A stretch of 32,148 bases of DNA from an uncultured Candidatus Actinomarina sp. (GTDB lineage Bacteria; Actinomycetota; Acidimicrobiia; Actinomarinales; Actinomarinaceae): NCBI GenBank assembly GCA_902593475.1, contig CACJIM010000009.1, positions 1 to 32,148 of the forward strand. Direction: 5' to 3'. This document shows positions 2,808 through 21,056 of this stretch, one piece after another. Position 1 is the stretch's first letter; each line of letters begins with the position of its first letter. A model generated the notes under the pieces. That model saw only the letters and a program-made list of their open reading frames with translations. It had not been told where the DNA came from and did not search any database. A program made the position numbers and the translations under genes.

Positions 2808-2813
2808 ATATTA
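2808..2813 (-). promoter_or_regulatory. -10 element TAATAT overlapping the gcvPB stop codon
   Basis: TAATAT lies 6 nt before the ATG at 2801. Its first three bases are the TAA stop of gcvPB, so one trinucleotide ends translation of one gene and seeds a promoter for the next. Confidence 0.5.
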
Positions 2814-4316
2814 TTCAGTTAATTCAAGAAGTTCAAAATCTCCCCAATTAACTGTTAAATGTTTAGCAGGAATAAGCTCATTTGGCCTTCCAACTGGTAA
2901 ATTTTTAGGATATTCTTCAAGTGAAACATCTTCACCCTGTAGTTCATCGATAATTGCTTTAAGGGTATCTGCCAAGTCATCAAGCGTATCAACAGTTTGA
3001 GTCTCTGTAGGTTCAAACATAAGAGCTTCTTCAATAATAAGAGGAAAATAGATAGTTGGGGAATGAAAACCTTTATCTAACAGAGCTTTTCCAACATCAT
3101 ATGCTTTTATCTTATGTGATTTCTTAAGATCTTTTACTGTCGCTACAAATTCATGCATGCATGGCTCGTTATAAGCAAGAGGTATAACTTTAGAAATGAC
3201 TGAACTTAGATACCTTGCATTAAGAACAGCATAAGAACCGAGTGTATCTAAACCTTCTTTACCTAATAATTTCATATAAACAAGAGCTCGTAATGCTACT
3301 AAGAAATTACCGTGATATCCATGCATACGACCAATGGATAGTTTTGGCTTATACCACTCATAACTATCTTCATTTTTCTCAACAATTGGACCTGGTAAAT
3401 ATTCTTTCAAGAAAGCTTTTACAGCTACCGGTCCTGAACCTGGACCACCACCGCCATGAGGTGTTGCAAAAGTTTTATGAAGATTTGAATGTACGATATC
3501 AAAGCCCATGTCCCCTGGTCTACATACTCCAACGATTGCATTTAAGTTTGCTCCGTCATAATAAACTAATCCACCATTCTCGTGAATAATATTTGATATC
3601 TCCATAATATTTTCTTCAAACAATCCACCTGTATTTGGATTCGTTAACATTAATCCAGCAGTATTTTCATTTACTAATCCTTTAAGGTCGTCAATGTTCA
3701 CCATACCTCTTACATCTGTTGATACTTCTACCACATTAAAACCTGCCATCTTTGCAGAAGCCGGATTAGTACCATGGGCTGAATCTGGAACGATAATATC
3801 TGTTTTATTAGTTAAATTGTTTTCTTCTAAATATTTTTTAATGATTAATAATCCTGTTAACTCTCCAGATGCGCCTGCTGGTGGTTGGAACGTAGCATTA
3901 TCCATTCCAGTGATTTCAATTAAAAATTTCTCTAATTCGTGGAGTACTTCTAAGTTACCTTGAGTGAACGCAGAAGGTGTTGAAGGATGAGAATTAGCAA
4001 AGGTATTTAACCCAGCTACATAATCAGCAAATCTAGGATTGTACTTCATTGTGCAAGACCCAAGTGGATAAAATCCCACATCAACAGCAAAATTTCTATG
4101 TGCAAGTCTTGAGTAATGCATTACTAAATCATGCTCTGAAACCTCAGGAAGACTTGGTTTGTCATTTCTAATTGCTGAATTGTTTATTTCAGTTACTGGA
4201 ACATCTAATTTAGGAAATCTCGAAGCTCTTCGACCAGGTTTGGACAATTGATTAATTGTAGGTTCAGGAGCACCGCCTACTAAAGGTAATGAACTAGCGT
4301 TACCACCACTATGCAT
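2811..4316 (-). CDS. gcvPB: Glycine dehydrogenase (decarboxylating) subunit 2
   Basis: The C-terminal half of the split P-protein of the glycine cleavage system. With GcvPA it decarboxylates glycine using PLP and passes the aminomethyl group to the lipoyl arm of GcvH. The PLP lysine is in SNLHKTFATPHGGGGPGSG. Other family marks are YPLGSCTMKYNP and FQPPAGASGE. The ORF track starts at a TTG at 4322 that directly abuts the Shine-Dalgarno. The ATG at 4316, 6 nt after GGAGG, is a better start and gives 501 aa, a normal length for the subunit. The start overlaps the end of gcvPA by 8 nt, so the two are probably translationally coupled and made in equal amounts. Confidence 0.95.
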   Translation of the reverse strand: MHSGGNASSLPLVGGAPEPTINQLSKPGRRASRFPKLDVPVTEINNSAIRNDKPSLPEVSEHDLVMHYSRLAHRNFAVDVGFYPLGSCTMKYNPRFADYVAGLNTFANSHPSTPSAFTQGNLEVLHELEKFLIEITGMDNATFQPPAGASGELTGLLIIKKYLEENNLTNKTDIIVPDSAHGTNPASAKMAGFNVVEVSTDVRGMVNIDDLKGLVNENTAGLMLTNPNTGGLFEENIMEISNIIHENGGLVYYDGANLNAIVGVCRPGDMGFDIVHSNLHKTFATPHGGGGPGSGPVAVKAFLKEYLPGPIVEKNEDSYEWYKPKLSIGRMHGYHGNFLVALRALVYMKLLGKEGLDTLGSYAVLNARYLSSVISKVIPLAYNEPCMHEFVATVKDLKKSHKIKAYDVGKALLDKGFHSPTIYFPLIIEEALMFEPTETQTVDTLDDLADTLKAIIDELQGEDVSLEEYPKNLPVGRPNELIPAKHLTVNWGDFELLELTE

Positions 4317-5616
4317 TATCAACCTCCATTAAAGACTGCACGTAATTATCTATTTGAGCTTTGGTTCTCTTTTCGGTCACTGCTACTAAGATTTGATTAT
4401 CATCATATTTAATACCAGCTAAAAATCCTTTAGATCCCATTTCGAGTATTACTTCTTCTGCAGATTTTTTAGTTTCTACTAAAAATTCTCTTAAAGAGGA
4501 AGTGTGGTTTAAAACATTGAAATTGTTATCGGTTAATAATTGTTTCATATATGAAGCTTTTTGAATAGCTTGATATCCTATTTCATAAAGACCTTCGGGT
4601 CCTAACCATGATAGGTGTATTGTTGAACCAACAGCATTTAGTGTTTGATTTGTGCAAATATTAGATGAGGCTTTTTCACGTCTAATGTCCTGTTCACGGG
4701 CTCTTAATGTCATAACATAAGTTTTGGTATTATTCGAATCTCTAGATTCACCAATTATTCTTCCTGGAACAAGTCTTGCTAATTCTTTTCTAGTTGCGAA
4801 CCAACCAACCGTTGGGCCACCAAATGATAACGGAGATCCCATTGACTGGCCTTCAGCTACAACAATATCAAATCCCATTGATCCAGGGGATTTTAAAATC
4901 CCAAGCATAGATGGGTCTGCATAACAAATTGTAATTACACCTGCTGCTTTTGCGTTATGAACTATTGATGTTAAATCCTGTGCAGAACCTTCATAGTGTG
5001 GAAGTGAAACAACAAATGCTGCATCATCTTGTGAAAAAACATAATCTTCCGGAAATAAATAATCAACTAAATCTACGTAATTAACATTAAATTTATTCCT
5101 ATCTAAAAGAGTATTAACAACTTCCTTGGTGTTGGGATTAAAACCACTGGAGATAACAATATTGTCTCTTTTTGTTTTATTAATTGCTACTGAAACTGCT
5201 TCTGCAACAGATGTTGCGCCATCGTAAAGAGATGCGTTTGCAAGTTCCATGTCGGTTAAATCACAGATAAGTGATTGATATTCAAATAGTACCTGAAGTA
5301 TTCCCTGTGAAATTTCAGCTTGATAAGGTGTATAAGATGTCATAAATTCTGGACGCATTGTTAATGATTTAACTGTTTGTGGTAGATAAACGTCGTAATG
5401 TCCTCCCCCAGCAAAACAAATAAGATTCTGAGTATTTTTAGATTCTAAAATTTCAAAATCACTAATAGATTCAAGCTCAGAGAGTGATGACGCAACATTT
5501 AAACCATCATTCAGTTTTAAAGTTTCTGGTATGTGTGTAAATAAGTCATCTAGAGAGCTTATAGATAACTCTTCAAACATTTTCTTCAAATCAATTTCTG
5601 AATGTGGTACAAACAT
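4309..5616 (-). CDS. gcvPA: Glycine dehydrogenase (decarboxylating) subunit 1
   Basis: The N-terminal half of the split P-protein, 435 aa, normal for the family. Diagnostic stretches include FAGGGHYDVYLP, TPYQAEISQG, GQSMGSPLSFGGPTVGWFA and LRAREQDIRREKASSNICTNQ. It forms the heterotetrameric PLP enzyme with GcvPB, which carries the PLP lysine. Its ATG overlaps the gcvT stop as TAATG, and its end overlaps gcvPB, so it is an internal operon gene. The presence of PA and PB as two proteins, rather than one fused GcvP, is the form common in Firmicutes, archaea and some actinobacteria. Confidence 0.95.
   Translation of the reverse strand: MFVPHSEIDLKKMFEELSISSLDDLFTHIPETLKLNDGLNVASSLSELESISDFEILESKNTQNLICFAGGGHYDVYLPQTVKSLTMRPEFMTSYTPYQAEISQGILQVLFEYQSLICDLTDMELANASLYDGATSVAEAVSVAINKTKRDNIVISSGFNPNTKEVVNTLLDRNKFNVNYVDLVDYLFPEDYVFSQDDAAFVVSLPHYEGSAQDLTSIVHNAKAAGVITICYADPSMLGILKSPGSMGFDIVVAEGQSMGSPLSFGGPTVGWFATRKELARLVPGRIIGESRDSNNTKTYVMTLRAREQDIRREKASSNICTNQTLNAVGSTIHLSWLGPEGLYEIGYQAIQKASYMKQLLTDNNFNVLNHTSSLREFLVETKKSAEEVILEMGSKGFLAGIKYDDNQILVAVTEKRTKAQIDNYVQSLMEVDNA
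4323..4327 (-). promoter_or_regulatory. Shine-Dalgarno GGAGG for gcvPB
   Basis: GGAGG inside the last codons of gcvPA, 6 nt before the ATG at 4316. It decides the start against the TTG at 4322. Confidence 0.7.
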
Positions 5617-6638
5617 TAACTTAAAAACCTCTTATATAACAAATTGCCCTCTATTAAATTACCACGAATATCAAACTCTACTAAATCGTCAGCAGGATTA
5701 CTTTTGAATAAAACAAAGCCAATTGGATAGCCTAATATTGGCGAAATATTGCCTGAAGTTACAATTCCTTCTACTCCATCGGAAACACAAATTGTTCCAG
5801 TACGGGCTATCTGTTTAGCATTTAACTTAAATCTCTTGAGGTGTTTGTGTTCCTTGGATTCTATTTGGTGATCAATAACATCTTTTCCTAGATACTCATC
5901 TTTATTCGTTACAGTCCATTTAAGACCTGCTTCAATTGGTGAAATGTCATCAGTTAATTCAAACCCGTATAGCGGTAAAGACGCTTCAAGTCTTAATGTA
6001 TCTCTTGATCCTAAACCACAAGGTTTAACACCTTTAGCCTCCAATTCAGATATAAAACCTAGTGTATCGTTAATGTCAACCATAACCTCAAGGCCATCCT
6101 CACCTGTATAGCCTGTTCTCGCATATACATATTTTCCTTCTTTTGAAGTTGAGAATTTATTAGGAACAGACATAATATTGCTAACAATATCTATCGCATT
6201 CTTACCTTGAACAGCTATTAAATCTGTATTCATAGTGAGGTCTTCATAATTAATTGAATGAATATCTAAATGTGTTTTAATTTTATTTGTATTGCTTGCA
6301 TTGCATATAAGTATCAAGTCATCTTCAAATTTCCAAAATATAACATCATCTATGGCAGTTCCGTCTTCAGAAGTAAAAATTGAGTACAGTGCCTTTGTAT
6401 TACTTATATTTTTAAGATCAGAACATATTAAATAATTAATTTCTTCAATTTGGGAGTAATTTAAACGAAGTCTTCCCATATGAGACACGTCAAAATATCC
6501 TGCAGACTCTCTTACGTAATGATGTTCTTTTAATGTTCCATCATAAGAGAATGGCATAGACCAACCAGCAAAATCTATAACCTTTGCATTTTTACTTAGA
6601 TGAAAATCGTAAAGAGAAGTAGTTTTAGATTCTGACAT
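5616..6638 (-). CDS. gcvT: Aminomethyltransferase, glycine cleavage T-protein
   Basis: A 340-aa folate-dependent T-protein. It takes the aminomethyl group from lipoyl-GcvH, releases ammonia and makes 5,10-methylene-tetrahydrofolate. Family marks: FDVSHMGRL near the N-terminus, ARTGYTGEDGLEV in the folate region (about residue 165), and GLGSRDTLRLEASLPLYG (about 205). The C-terminal beta-barrel domain follows and is complete. Both ends show TAATG stop/start overlaps (with gcvH and with gcvPA), so the gene is tightly coupled within the operon. Confidence 0.95.
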   Translation of the reverse strand: MSESKTTSLYDFHLSKNAKVIDFAGWSMPFSYDGTLKEHHYVRESAGYFDVSHMGRLRLNYSQIEEINYLICSDLKNISNTKALYSIFTSEDGTAIDDVIFWKFEDDLILICNASNTNKIKTHLDIHSINYEDLTMNTDLIAVQGKNAIDIVSNIMSVPNKFSTSKEGKYVYARTGYTGEDGLEVMVDINDTLGFISELEAKGVKPCGLGSRDTLRLEASLPLYGFELTDDISPIEAGLKWTVTNKDEYLGKDVIDHQIESKEHKHLKRFKLNAKQIARTGTICVSDGVEGIVTSGNISPILGYPIGFVLFKSNPADDLVEFDIRGNLIEGNLLYKRFLS

Positions 6639-18836: not shown

Positions 18837-20085
18837 TTACATTTTTTACATTATTGCGGTAAATTAATCTTGTTCCTCTTTTATTCAAAAAATATGCAAA
18901 AACCCATTCAATTAGAACAATGAATTTAGATTTATAACCAATTAAATAAACTAAGTGGATCAAACTCCAAAAGAGCCATGCAAGTAAACCTGATATTTGA
19001 AACTTGCCAATAACTCCTATAGCCTTAAATCCCCCTACTGTAGCCATCATACCTTTATCACGATAACGAAAAATTTTATTAGTTCTGAGGGGTTTATCAG
19101 ATGTCAATATTTTCGCCAAATATTTACCTTGCTGGATAGCTACTGGAGCTATTCCTGGTAATGGATCCCCATTATTATTTTTATAGTTTGCAGCATCTCC
19201 TATTACATAAATTGAATTACTATTTTTTAATGAAAAATCGTAATCTACTATAACTCTTCCAAATTTATCAACTTCTGTATCTAGTTTTTCAATAAGCGGA
19301 TTAGCTTTGTTGCCAGCAGCCCAAATAATATTATTAGTAGCGTAACTTTCTTTTTCAGTTGTTACTTTGTTATATTCTATATTTAAAACTTTCTCATTCA
19401 ATTTTAAATTGACACCTAACTTTTCTAAGTACTTGCTTGCTTTAGATGATAGAATTTTAGAGTAATCAGGGAGAATATCACTACCAGCTTCAATCAAGTA
19501 AACATTTATATCCTCAATTTTAAAATTTCTATATTCGTTTTTAATATTTTTATAAGCAAGTTCAGCTATCGATCCAGCTAGCTCTACTCCTGTAGGCCCA
19601 CCACCAATAATTACAAAATTTAAATATGAAAGCTTTTTAAAAATATCTTTTTCACTTTCTGCTTTTTCGAAAGCTTTTAAGATATTATCTCTAATATCAA
19701 GAGCATCATTTAAGTTTTTTAATCCGTTGGAGTAAGAGCTCCAATCATCATTACCAAAATATGAAAAGCTAGAACCAACACTGATCAATAATTTATCATA
19801 GTTAATTAAATTTCCACTTTTTAATTGAAGGGACTTGTTTTGCTGATCTATATCAATTACTTCATCAAGAACAATTTGCACATTCTTATCATTTTTGAAT
19901 AAATTTCGGATTGGAACAGTTATATCTGCAGGCGACAAAACAGCTGTAGCTACCTGGTATAAAAGAGGTTGAAAAAGATGGTGGTTAGTTTTATCAACTA
20001 ATATAAAGTTATTTTTACTTTTACGAGCTGCTTTAAGAAAACTTAATCCTCCAAAACCTCCACCAATTATTACAACCTTCTTCAT
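18826..20085 (-). CDS. ndh: Type II NADH dehydrogenase
   Basis: A 419-aa NDH-2 flavoprotein that passes electrons from NADH to quinone at the inner membrane face without pumping protons. The FAD motif is GGGFGGLSFLKAA (residues 8-20). HHLFQPLLYQVATAVLSPADI is a strong NDH-2 signature. A second dinucleotide fold, FVIIGGGPTGVELAGS (about residue 158), binds NADH. YVIGDAANY (about 296) contacts FAD. The C-terminal hydrophobic and basic segment is the membrane anchor. TATAAT, a consensus -10, lies 7 nt before the ATG. Confidence 0.93.
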   Translation of the reverse strand: MKKVVIIGGGFGGLSFLKAARKSKNNFILVDKTNHHLFQPLLYQVATAVLSPADITVPIRNLFKNDKNVQIVLDEVIDIDQQNKSLQLKSGNLINYDKLLISVGSSFSYFGNDDWSSYSNGLKNLNDALDIRDNILKAFEKAESEKDIFKKLSYLNFVIIGGGPTGVELAGSIAELAYKNIKNEYRNFKIEDINVYLIEAGSDILPDYSKILSSKASKYLEKLGVNLKLNEKVLNIEYNKVTTEKESYATNNIIWAAGNKANPLIEKLDTEVDKFGRVIVDYDFSLKNSNSIYVIGDAANYKNNNGDPLPGIAPVAIQQGKYLAKILTSDKPLRTNKIFRYRDKGMMATVGGFKAIGVIGKFQISGLLAWLFWSLIHLVYLIGYKSKFIVLIEWVFAYFLNKRGTRLIYRNNVKNVTNN

Positions 20086-20092
20086 TAAGTAA

Positions 20093-20098
20093 ATTATA
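20093..20098 (-). promoter_or_regulatory. Consensus -10 TATAAT of ndh
   Basis: TATAAT-N7-ATG, supporting a leaderless ndh mRNA. Confidence 0.55.
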
Positions 20099-20212
20099 TA
20101 TAGAGTTAATGCTTTACATAAAAACTAGATAATATGTTTAATATAATTGCTAATTATTTGCAAAATTATTCCAATTTGCTCAACCTCATTGTTTTTGGTC
20201 CGTAAATGTATT

Positions 20213-20218
20213 TATACT
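20213..20218 (+). promoter_or_regulatory. -10 element TATACT of the PanB-like gene
   Basis: TATACT-N7-ATG. Confidence 0.5.
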
Positions 20219-20225
20219 TATACAA

Positions 20226-21056
20226 ATGAAACGTATCTACACCTTTGGTCACGAACAGGTAGAAAGAAATATAACTGTTGGAGACATATTAGAAAATAAA
20301 AAAAATAATATAAAAATGACTCAAGTTACCGCTGCTAATCAAGAAGAGGCTGAAATAATTGCAAGCCAAGATGTGGATATGATTATTACGGGAAGTGACT
20401 GGTATCAAGATGTTAGAAATGGTGCTCCAAATACGTTTATTACAGCTGCTCTTTTTGCTGGAAGATTTATTACAAATGAAGAAATACTTAGAGGTGCTTT
20501 TGATGTAATGATGGCAGGAGCTGATTCAGTACTAACTCCAAGAAGCTTTGATGTTGTAGAAATGTTAGCAAAAGAAGGTATGCAGGTACAAGGTCATGTA
20601 GGAATGGTTCCTTCAATGGCAACAAAATATGGTGGAATTAGAACTGTTGGTAAAACTGCAGACGAAGCTATAGAGATTCTTAAAGATATGAAAAGACTTG
20701 AAGATGCAGGAGCATTTGGTGCAGAAGTAGAGTGTGTAGCTGAAGATGCATTAAATGAAATTAAAAAACACACTTCCCTAGTTATAAACTCCCTTGGCTC
20801 TGGTTCAGGTGGAGATGTTATGTTTTTATTCTTTGAGGATATTTGTGGTGAAACAGCTGGAATTAAAATGCCAAGGCATGCAAAATCATGGGGAGATGGT
20901 AAAAAAATAAAACATAAATTAAATCAAGAAAGATCAAAAGCCATAAAAGGTTTTAAAGATGATGTTGATTCAGGAAATTTTCCAAATAGCAATCATACAG
21001 TTGAGATGCTTCCTGGAGAAAAAAAAGTTCTACTTGAAAAATTAGACAGTATATAA
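20226..21056 (+). CDS. PanB-like protein without key active-site residues
   Basis: A 276-aa protein of the ketopantoate hydroxymethyltransferase superfamily. The C-terminal half aligns well by eye with PanB: QGHVGMVPS (PanB GHxGLTPQ), a GGI..VGKT segment, LEDAGAFGAEVECV (PanB AGA..LVLECVP, keeping Glu181) and a tail ending like the PanB C-terminus. The N-terminal half is divergent: VGDSL is replaced by TGSDW, ADLPF (Asp84, a Mg ligand) by ALFAG, and KIEGG (Lys112, Glu114) by VLTPR. It is therefore unlikely to make ketopantoate and may use another 2-oxo acid or phosphonate-like substrate. It is followed with no gap by a 48-aa membrane gene. Confidence 0.7.
   Translation: MKRIYTFGHEQVERNITVGDILENKKNNIKMTQVTAANQEEAEIIASQDVDMIITGSDWYQDVRNGAPNTFITAALFAGRFITNEEILRGAFDVMMAGADSVLTPRSFDVVEMLAKEGMQVQGHVGMVPSMATKYGGIRTVGKTADEAIEILKDMKRLEDAGAFGAEVECVAEDALNEIKKHTSLVINSLGSGSGGDVMFLFFEDICGETAGIKMPRHAKSWGDGKKIKHKLNQERSKAIKGFKDDVDSGNFPNSNHTVEMLPGEKKVLLEKLDSI

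Follow-up and report, generated by a model that had tools for sequence, protein, structure and literature searches.

Ketopantoate hydroxymethyltransferase (PanB; TIGR00222; E. coli, PDB 1m3u) is a methylene-tetrahydrofolate (methylene-THF) dependent enzyme (PMC4814558). One review regards the condensation of formaldehyde with THF as spontaneous (PMC8879981), and the uncatalysed reaction has been described as far too slow in vivo for growth (PMC7073904). Capture of formaldehyde by other carriers is sped up by enzymes, Fae acting with tetrahydromethanopterin and Gfa with glutathione. In rhizobia, the mocD operon is involved in the catabolism of rhizopine, an O-methyl inosamine (PMC3538637; PMC10107442). 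The accounts of demethylation and moc operons that we found, among which few subscription papers were covered, name no PanB-like protein, whereas the rhizobial loci described below have a PanB-like gene. We compare these systems here with a gene of an uncultured Candidatus Actinomarina sp., located in a window (the whole stretch of DNA analysed) of 32,148 nucleotides.

The gene (20226–21056, + strand) starts with ATG and encodes 276 aa, its reading frame being intact, as a first-pass annotation had held. The product matches PF02548 (Pantoate_transf) with 112.1 bits (E 4e-32; Pfam gathering score 28.7 bits), mostly over residues 61–254, and this is the only significant Pfam family in it. There was no Pfam match to Fae or Gfa, which are unrelated to it in sequence and use other carriers. 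It does not pass the PanB equivalog model TIGR00222 (EC 2.1.2.11), scoring 94 bits against a cut-off of 207.55, whereas a second gene of the same genome (assembly of 836,891 bases, 60.5% complete), located at G000:C2:35692-36468, scores 351.5 bits and is a canonical panB. The fit of the C-terminal half to PanB claimed in the first-pass annotation is borne out by the PF02548 match, but the VGDSL loop is mostly deleted, and the overall length comes out close to that of PanB only through further differences at the N-terminus and C-terminus. The intact promoter that it also described was not recovered: no sigma-70-like site was found on the + strand of 20085–20226, and the count for the region did not exceed that in shuffled sequence. 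An AlphaFold2 run with close relatives as input gave a model with a mean pLDDT of 43, which was unusable. We call this protein and its relatives PanB*, a clade name defined here on 80 sampled members.

In E. coli PanB, Asp45 and Asp84 are Mg2+ ligands, and the residues considered here also include keto-acid contacts and the general base. Alignment with the E. coli K-12 protein (L106), possible over the C-terminal two thirds, indicates that this metal/keto-acid site is missing from the window protein, with four positions replaced (all codons on the + strand): 1) Asp45 by Ser57 (20394–20396), 2) Asp84 by Ala75 (20448–20450), 3) Lys112 by Leu103 (20532–20534), and 4) Glu114 by Pro105 (20538–20540). 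The last three losses and the retention of Glu181, as Glu169 (20730–20732), had been proposed before; the change at Asp45 and the retention of His136, as His124 (20595–20597), are additional. His124 and Glu169 have equivalents in 80/80 PanB*. With His136, Glu181 and G-rich motifs as fixed points of the alignment, the possibility that the catalytic Asp, Lys and Glu are present but shifted is ruled out; they are truly absent. After VGDS, a deletion of about 20 residues (site at 20397–20408, + strand) has removed most of the region of E. coli residues 47–70, which averages 4.1 residues in PanB* versus 24 in the comparison PanBs. The loop is thus altered, as had been noted, but mostly deleted rather than rewritten. 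Four residues, Arg64 (20415–20417), Asp100, Glu167 (20724–20726) and His218 (20877–20879), are invariant across the 80 PanB* and not in canonical PanB, each occurring in less than 20% of 35 comparison PanBs. Glu167, at the position of Val179, lies two residues N-terminal of Glu169, and His218 occupies the position of Phe229. The window protein has all four, together with the loop deletion. Of two motifs suggested as marks of homologues, TGSDW is confined to the subclade formed by Actinomarina plus L044/L045, and VLTPRS is conserved only in part outside that subclade. Judged from the alignment, the loss of the keto-acid site with His and Glu kept would fit a changed acceptor.

It is highly improbable that PanB* is still a ketopantoate hydroxymethyltransferase, as its database label has it. 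Membership in PF02548, the retained equivalents of Glu181 and His136, and the fact that in 11 of 40 PanB*-bearing genomes, some of them drafts, no PanB reaches the TIGR00222 cut-off could be read that way, but four active-site positions are replaced, the loop is deleted, the score falls far below the equivalog cut-off, and a canonical panB is present in this genome as well as in 29 of the 40.

In a maximum-likelihood tree, the 80 PanB* proteins, from Actinomarina, other Acidimicrobiia, Rhodobacterales and rhizobia, formed one group apart from the 35 other PanBs (support 100/100). Of 42 genomes sampled from the Actinomarina family, 36 (including the one studied here) encode the protein at full length, the other 35 copies being at 72–94% identity. 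Values of dN/dS among the Actinomarina copies were 0.05–0.16, approximate because dS is near or above 1, and indicate purifying selection. Decay is ruled out by these values, by the full-length conservation in 36 genomes and by the new invariant residues. A catalytically dead PanB paralogue, with a structural or regulatory role, would agree with the loss of the PanB metal site and with the solitary position of the gene in Actinomarina, but the invariant Glu167, Arg64 and His218, in combination with the kept His124 and Glu169, look like parts of an active site that functions, and we consider a dead or decaying gene improbable. That PanB* is a distinct family with its own role, as the first-pass annotation supposed, is well supported by the single clade, the new residues, the low dN/dS, the separate canonical panB and the recurrent gene context of the relatives (see below); its reaction may be new, as that annotation also proposed.

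The closest proteins outside Actinomarina come from two Rhodobacterales MAGs (68–69% identity), followed at about 35–49% by many from Rhodobacterales, rhizobial plasmids and other Acidimicrobiia. Within a radiation made up mainly of Rhodobacterales proteins, those of Actinomarina share one clade with the two P450-linked Rhodobacterales sequences, and this nesting suggests that the gene may have moved between the two lineages, in either direction. A viral carrier was rejected, as the PanB* query gave no relative on viral contigs. Among 348 genomes sampled from one Rhodobacterales family, 77 encode PanB* at E ≤ 1e-25. Three genomes of this family (G540, G656 and G422) have 4–5 copies each, located in different gene clusters, which suggests specialisation by partner system.

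An O2-dependent oxygenase of a tested type was located within 5 kb in 57 of 74 non-Actinomarina PanB* loci versus 0 of 29 control loci, i.e. panB loci from the same genomes screened identically (Fisher p 5e-14, with counts that are not independent since the loci are related, and with oxygenase families that were themselves defined from the PanB* neighbourhoods). One control, L234, adjoins a divergent hydroxylase-like gene missed by the screen, so that the control count is at most 1/29; its PanB is altered at positions 84, 114 and 179. No oxygenase of these types lies that close to PanB* in the other 17 of the 74 loci. By type, the partners are MocD-like FA_desaturase (30 loci), sterol-desaturase/FA_hydroxylase (26), Rieske oxygenase (7), P450 (3) and HD-type (3), the last label being that of the record annotation ('inositol oxygenase family') only, because the small proteins concerned (L050, L126 and L127) gave no Pfam match. 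Electron-transfer and folate genes found were those for a MocE-like Rieske ferredoxin (30 loci), ferredoxin reductase (9) and PurU (2). In a 68-locus survey, the MocD-like and Rieske-ferredoxin genes were always on the same strand as PanB*, with median gaps of 13 and 4 bp, respectively. The Rieske partners are nearest to glycine betaine monooxygenase GbcA, with scores below the cut-off, and at L152, from Acidimicrobiia, the surroundings of PanB* include PhyH dioxygenase genes and purU. The substrates of these partner systems look diverse, and the desaturase, P450 and sterol-desaturase partners could perform hydroxylations other than demethylation.

The clusters often contain other catabolic genes as well, including those for class II aldolase (11 loci), iol genes and dehydrogenases. 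Since reaction changes come readily in TIM-barrel superfamilies, PanB* might be an aldolase, isomerase or hydrolase that acts on the demethylated product and transfers no C1 unit. We regard this as unlikely, for it is the genes for oxygenase and electron transfer that return from locus to locus, whereas the downstream genes vary, and this argues that the PanB* step is common to all loci.

On plasmids of R. leguminosarum and S. meliloti, a LacI gene is divergent from a desaturase gene followed by genes for a 'MocE family' ferredoxin, a FAD reductase and PanB*, so that PanB* directly follows a mocDEF-type set. The rhizobial MocE ferredoxin passes TIGR02377 (186.1 bits; cut-off 136.15), and the record for R. 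etli CIAT 652 names the desaturase mocD. By eye, PanB* and a moc-type gene lie within about 3 kb of each other on about 19 of the 21 plasmids listed for both. MocDEF reportedly carries out O-demethylation (Bahar et al. 1998). Loci of Marivivens and Peteryoungia contain the same genes plus iol genes, consistent with the use of O-methyl inositols. Unlike these loci, Actinomarina panB* has no adjoining moc-type genes apart from one reductase-like match.

A third PanB lineage is also found beside oxygenase-like genes (L234:7178-8047, L239:6944-7861 and L240:7173-7955). These proteins resemble PanB* in having lost Asp84 (replaced by Ser or Cys) and Glu114 (Gln) and in having Glu in place of Val179, but the loop, Asp45 and Lys112 are present and they still score above the TIGR00222 cut-off. 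They group with PanB* at modest support (93/76). The hydroxylase-like gene adjoining the PanB of L234 encodes histidine boxes (recognized by eye; no NCBIfam match), whereas L239 and L240 adjoin a Rieske oxygenase gene and a GcvT-type gene, the latter near DMSP demethylase though below its cut-off. These residue patterns suggest that the oxygenase link may have come with the loss of Asp84 and Glu114 and the gain of Glu179, and that the loop was lost later. The three proteins are probably mis-annotated as pantothenate enzymes. Another protein, encoded at L241:6945-7742 in an unrelated-looking catabolic operon, is very divergent (26% identity to E. coli PanB; 121 bits to TIGR00222), lacks Asp45, Asp84 and Lys112 but keeps Glu114, and is possibly a further branch of the superfamily.

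One Rieske partner in the third lineage has as its closest, though weak, match a sterol C-4 demethylation oxygenase (79 bits; cut-off 600), which would agree with a retro-aldol reaction. The oxygenase would then convert a C-methyl group next to a carbonyl to -CH2OH, and PanB* would transfer this group to THF, in a reversal of PanB. The same oxygenase linkage and the kept Glu181 and His136 of PanB are compatible with such a reaction. However, the metal and keto-acid residues that stabilise the PanB enolate are lost and the best-known partner, mocDEF, acts on an O-methyl compound, so that we judge it fairly improbable.

The lost metal site and the location of the relatives beside demethylase-type oxygenases indicate that PanB* probably handles the released one-carbon piece. 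Our preferred reading, to which we give a little under an even chance, is that PanB* works with oxidative demethylases and passes the removed methyl carbon to THF. Hydroxylation of an O- or N-methyl group by the oxygenase would let the C1 unit leave at the formaldehyde level, and PanB* would hand this unit to THF to give 5,10-methylene-THF, with the kept His124 and Glu169 and the new Glu167 and His218 replacing the Mg2+/keto-acid site of PanB. Transfer to THF is favoured because demethylation at the formaldehyde level is common to the best-understood partners, because PanB uses methylene-THF, and because purU and GcvT-type genes are nearby. On this reading, most of the partners would be demethylases, PanB* would handle formaldehyde or a hydroxymethyl intermediate as their product, and THF would be the acceptor; binding and use of folate would likewise follow from PanB ancestry and the purU/GcvT-type neighbours. 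More tentatively, PanB* could be the enzyme that captures formaldehyde, or a nascent hydroxymethyl intermediate, on THF to yield 5,10-methylene-THF, which we consider possible but doubtful. The job so proposed for PanB* would resemble those of Fae and Gfa.

No tested oxygenase was located within 5 kb of panB* in any of 19 Actinomarina loci, so that its role there is extrapolated from the relatives; Actinomarina PanB* would do the same job with an oxygenase encoded elsewhere. The panB* neighbours in this genome are NDH-2 and DUF1295 genes, while a gamma-glutamyltransferase-like gene and a TauE/SafE-like permease gene (named by eye) stand beside panB* in other Actinomarina subclades. As the neighbours differ between subclades and give no consistent hint, a local partner was rejected. 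Widespread in Actinomarina is a P450 (L197:9368-10612; the same as G000:C2:42400-43602 in this genome) that shares about 31% identity with the P450 partner from Rhodobacterales. In this genome, its gene is located among genes for nucleoside hydrolase, phosphorylase, PfkB kinase and deoxyribosyltransferase. It is possibly a demethylase of modified nucleosides, and it is only a candidate for the PanB* partner, 31% identity between P450s saying little about substrate. The partner ferredoxin had no detectable match in Actinomarina in a search run without a positive control, and no PurU above the cut-off was found there. The window also contains glycine-cleavage genes, gcvP (two ORFs) and gcvT, on the - strand at 2811–6638, about 14 kb from panB*, which represent another source of methylene-THF.

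Databases label PanB* proteins as pantothenate enzymes although they form a separate clade. If these proteins do pass C1 units to folate, the destination of O- and N-methyl carbon would be explained in abundant marine and plant-associated bacteria, the rhizopine mocDEF operon would gain a gene, and the existence of a cellular enzyme for the formaldehyde-THF reaction would become testable. In Actinomarina, methyl carbon of dissolved organic matter would then enter the folate pool via PanB*.
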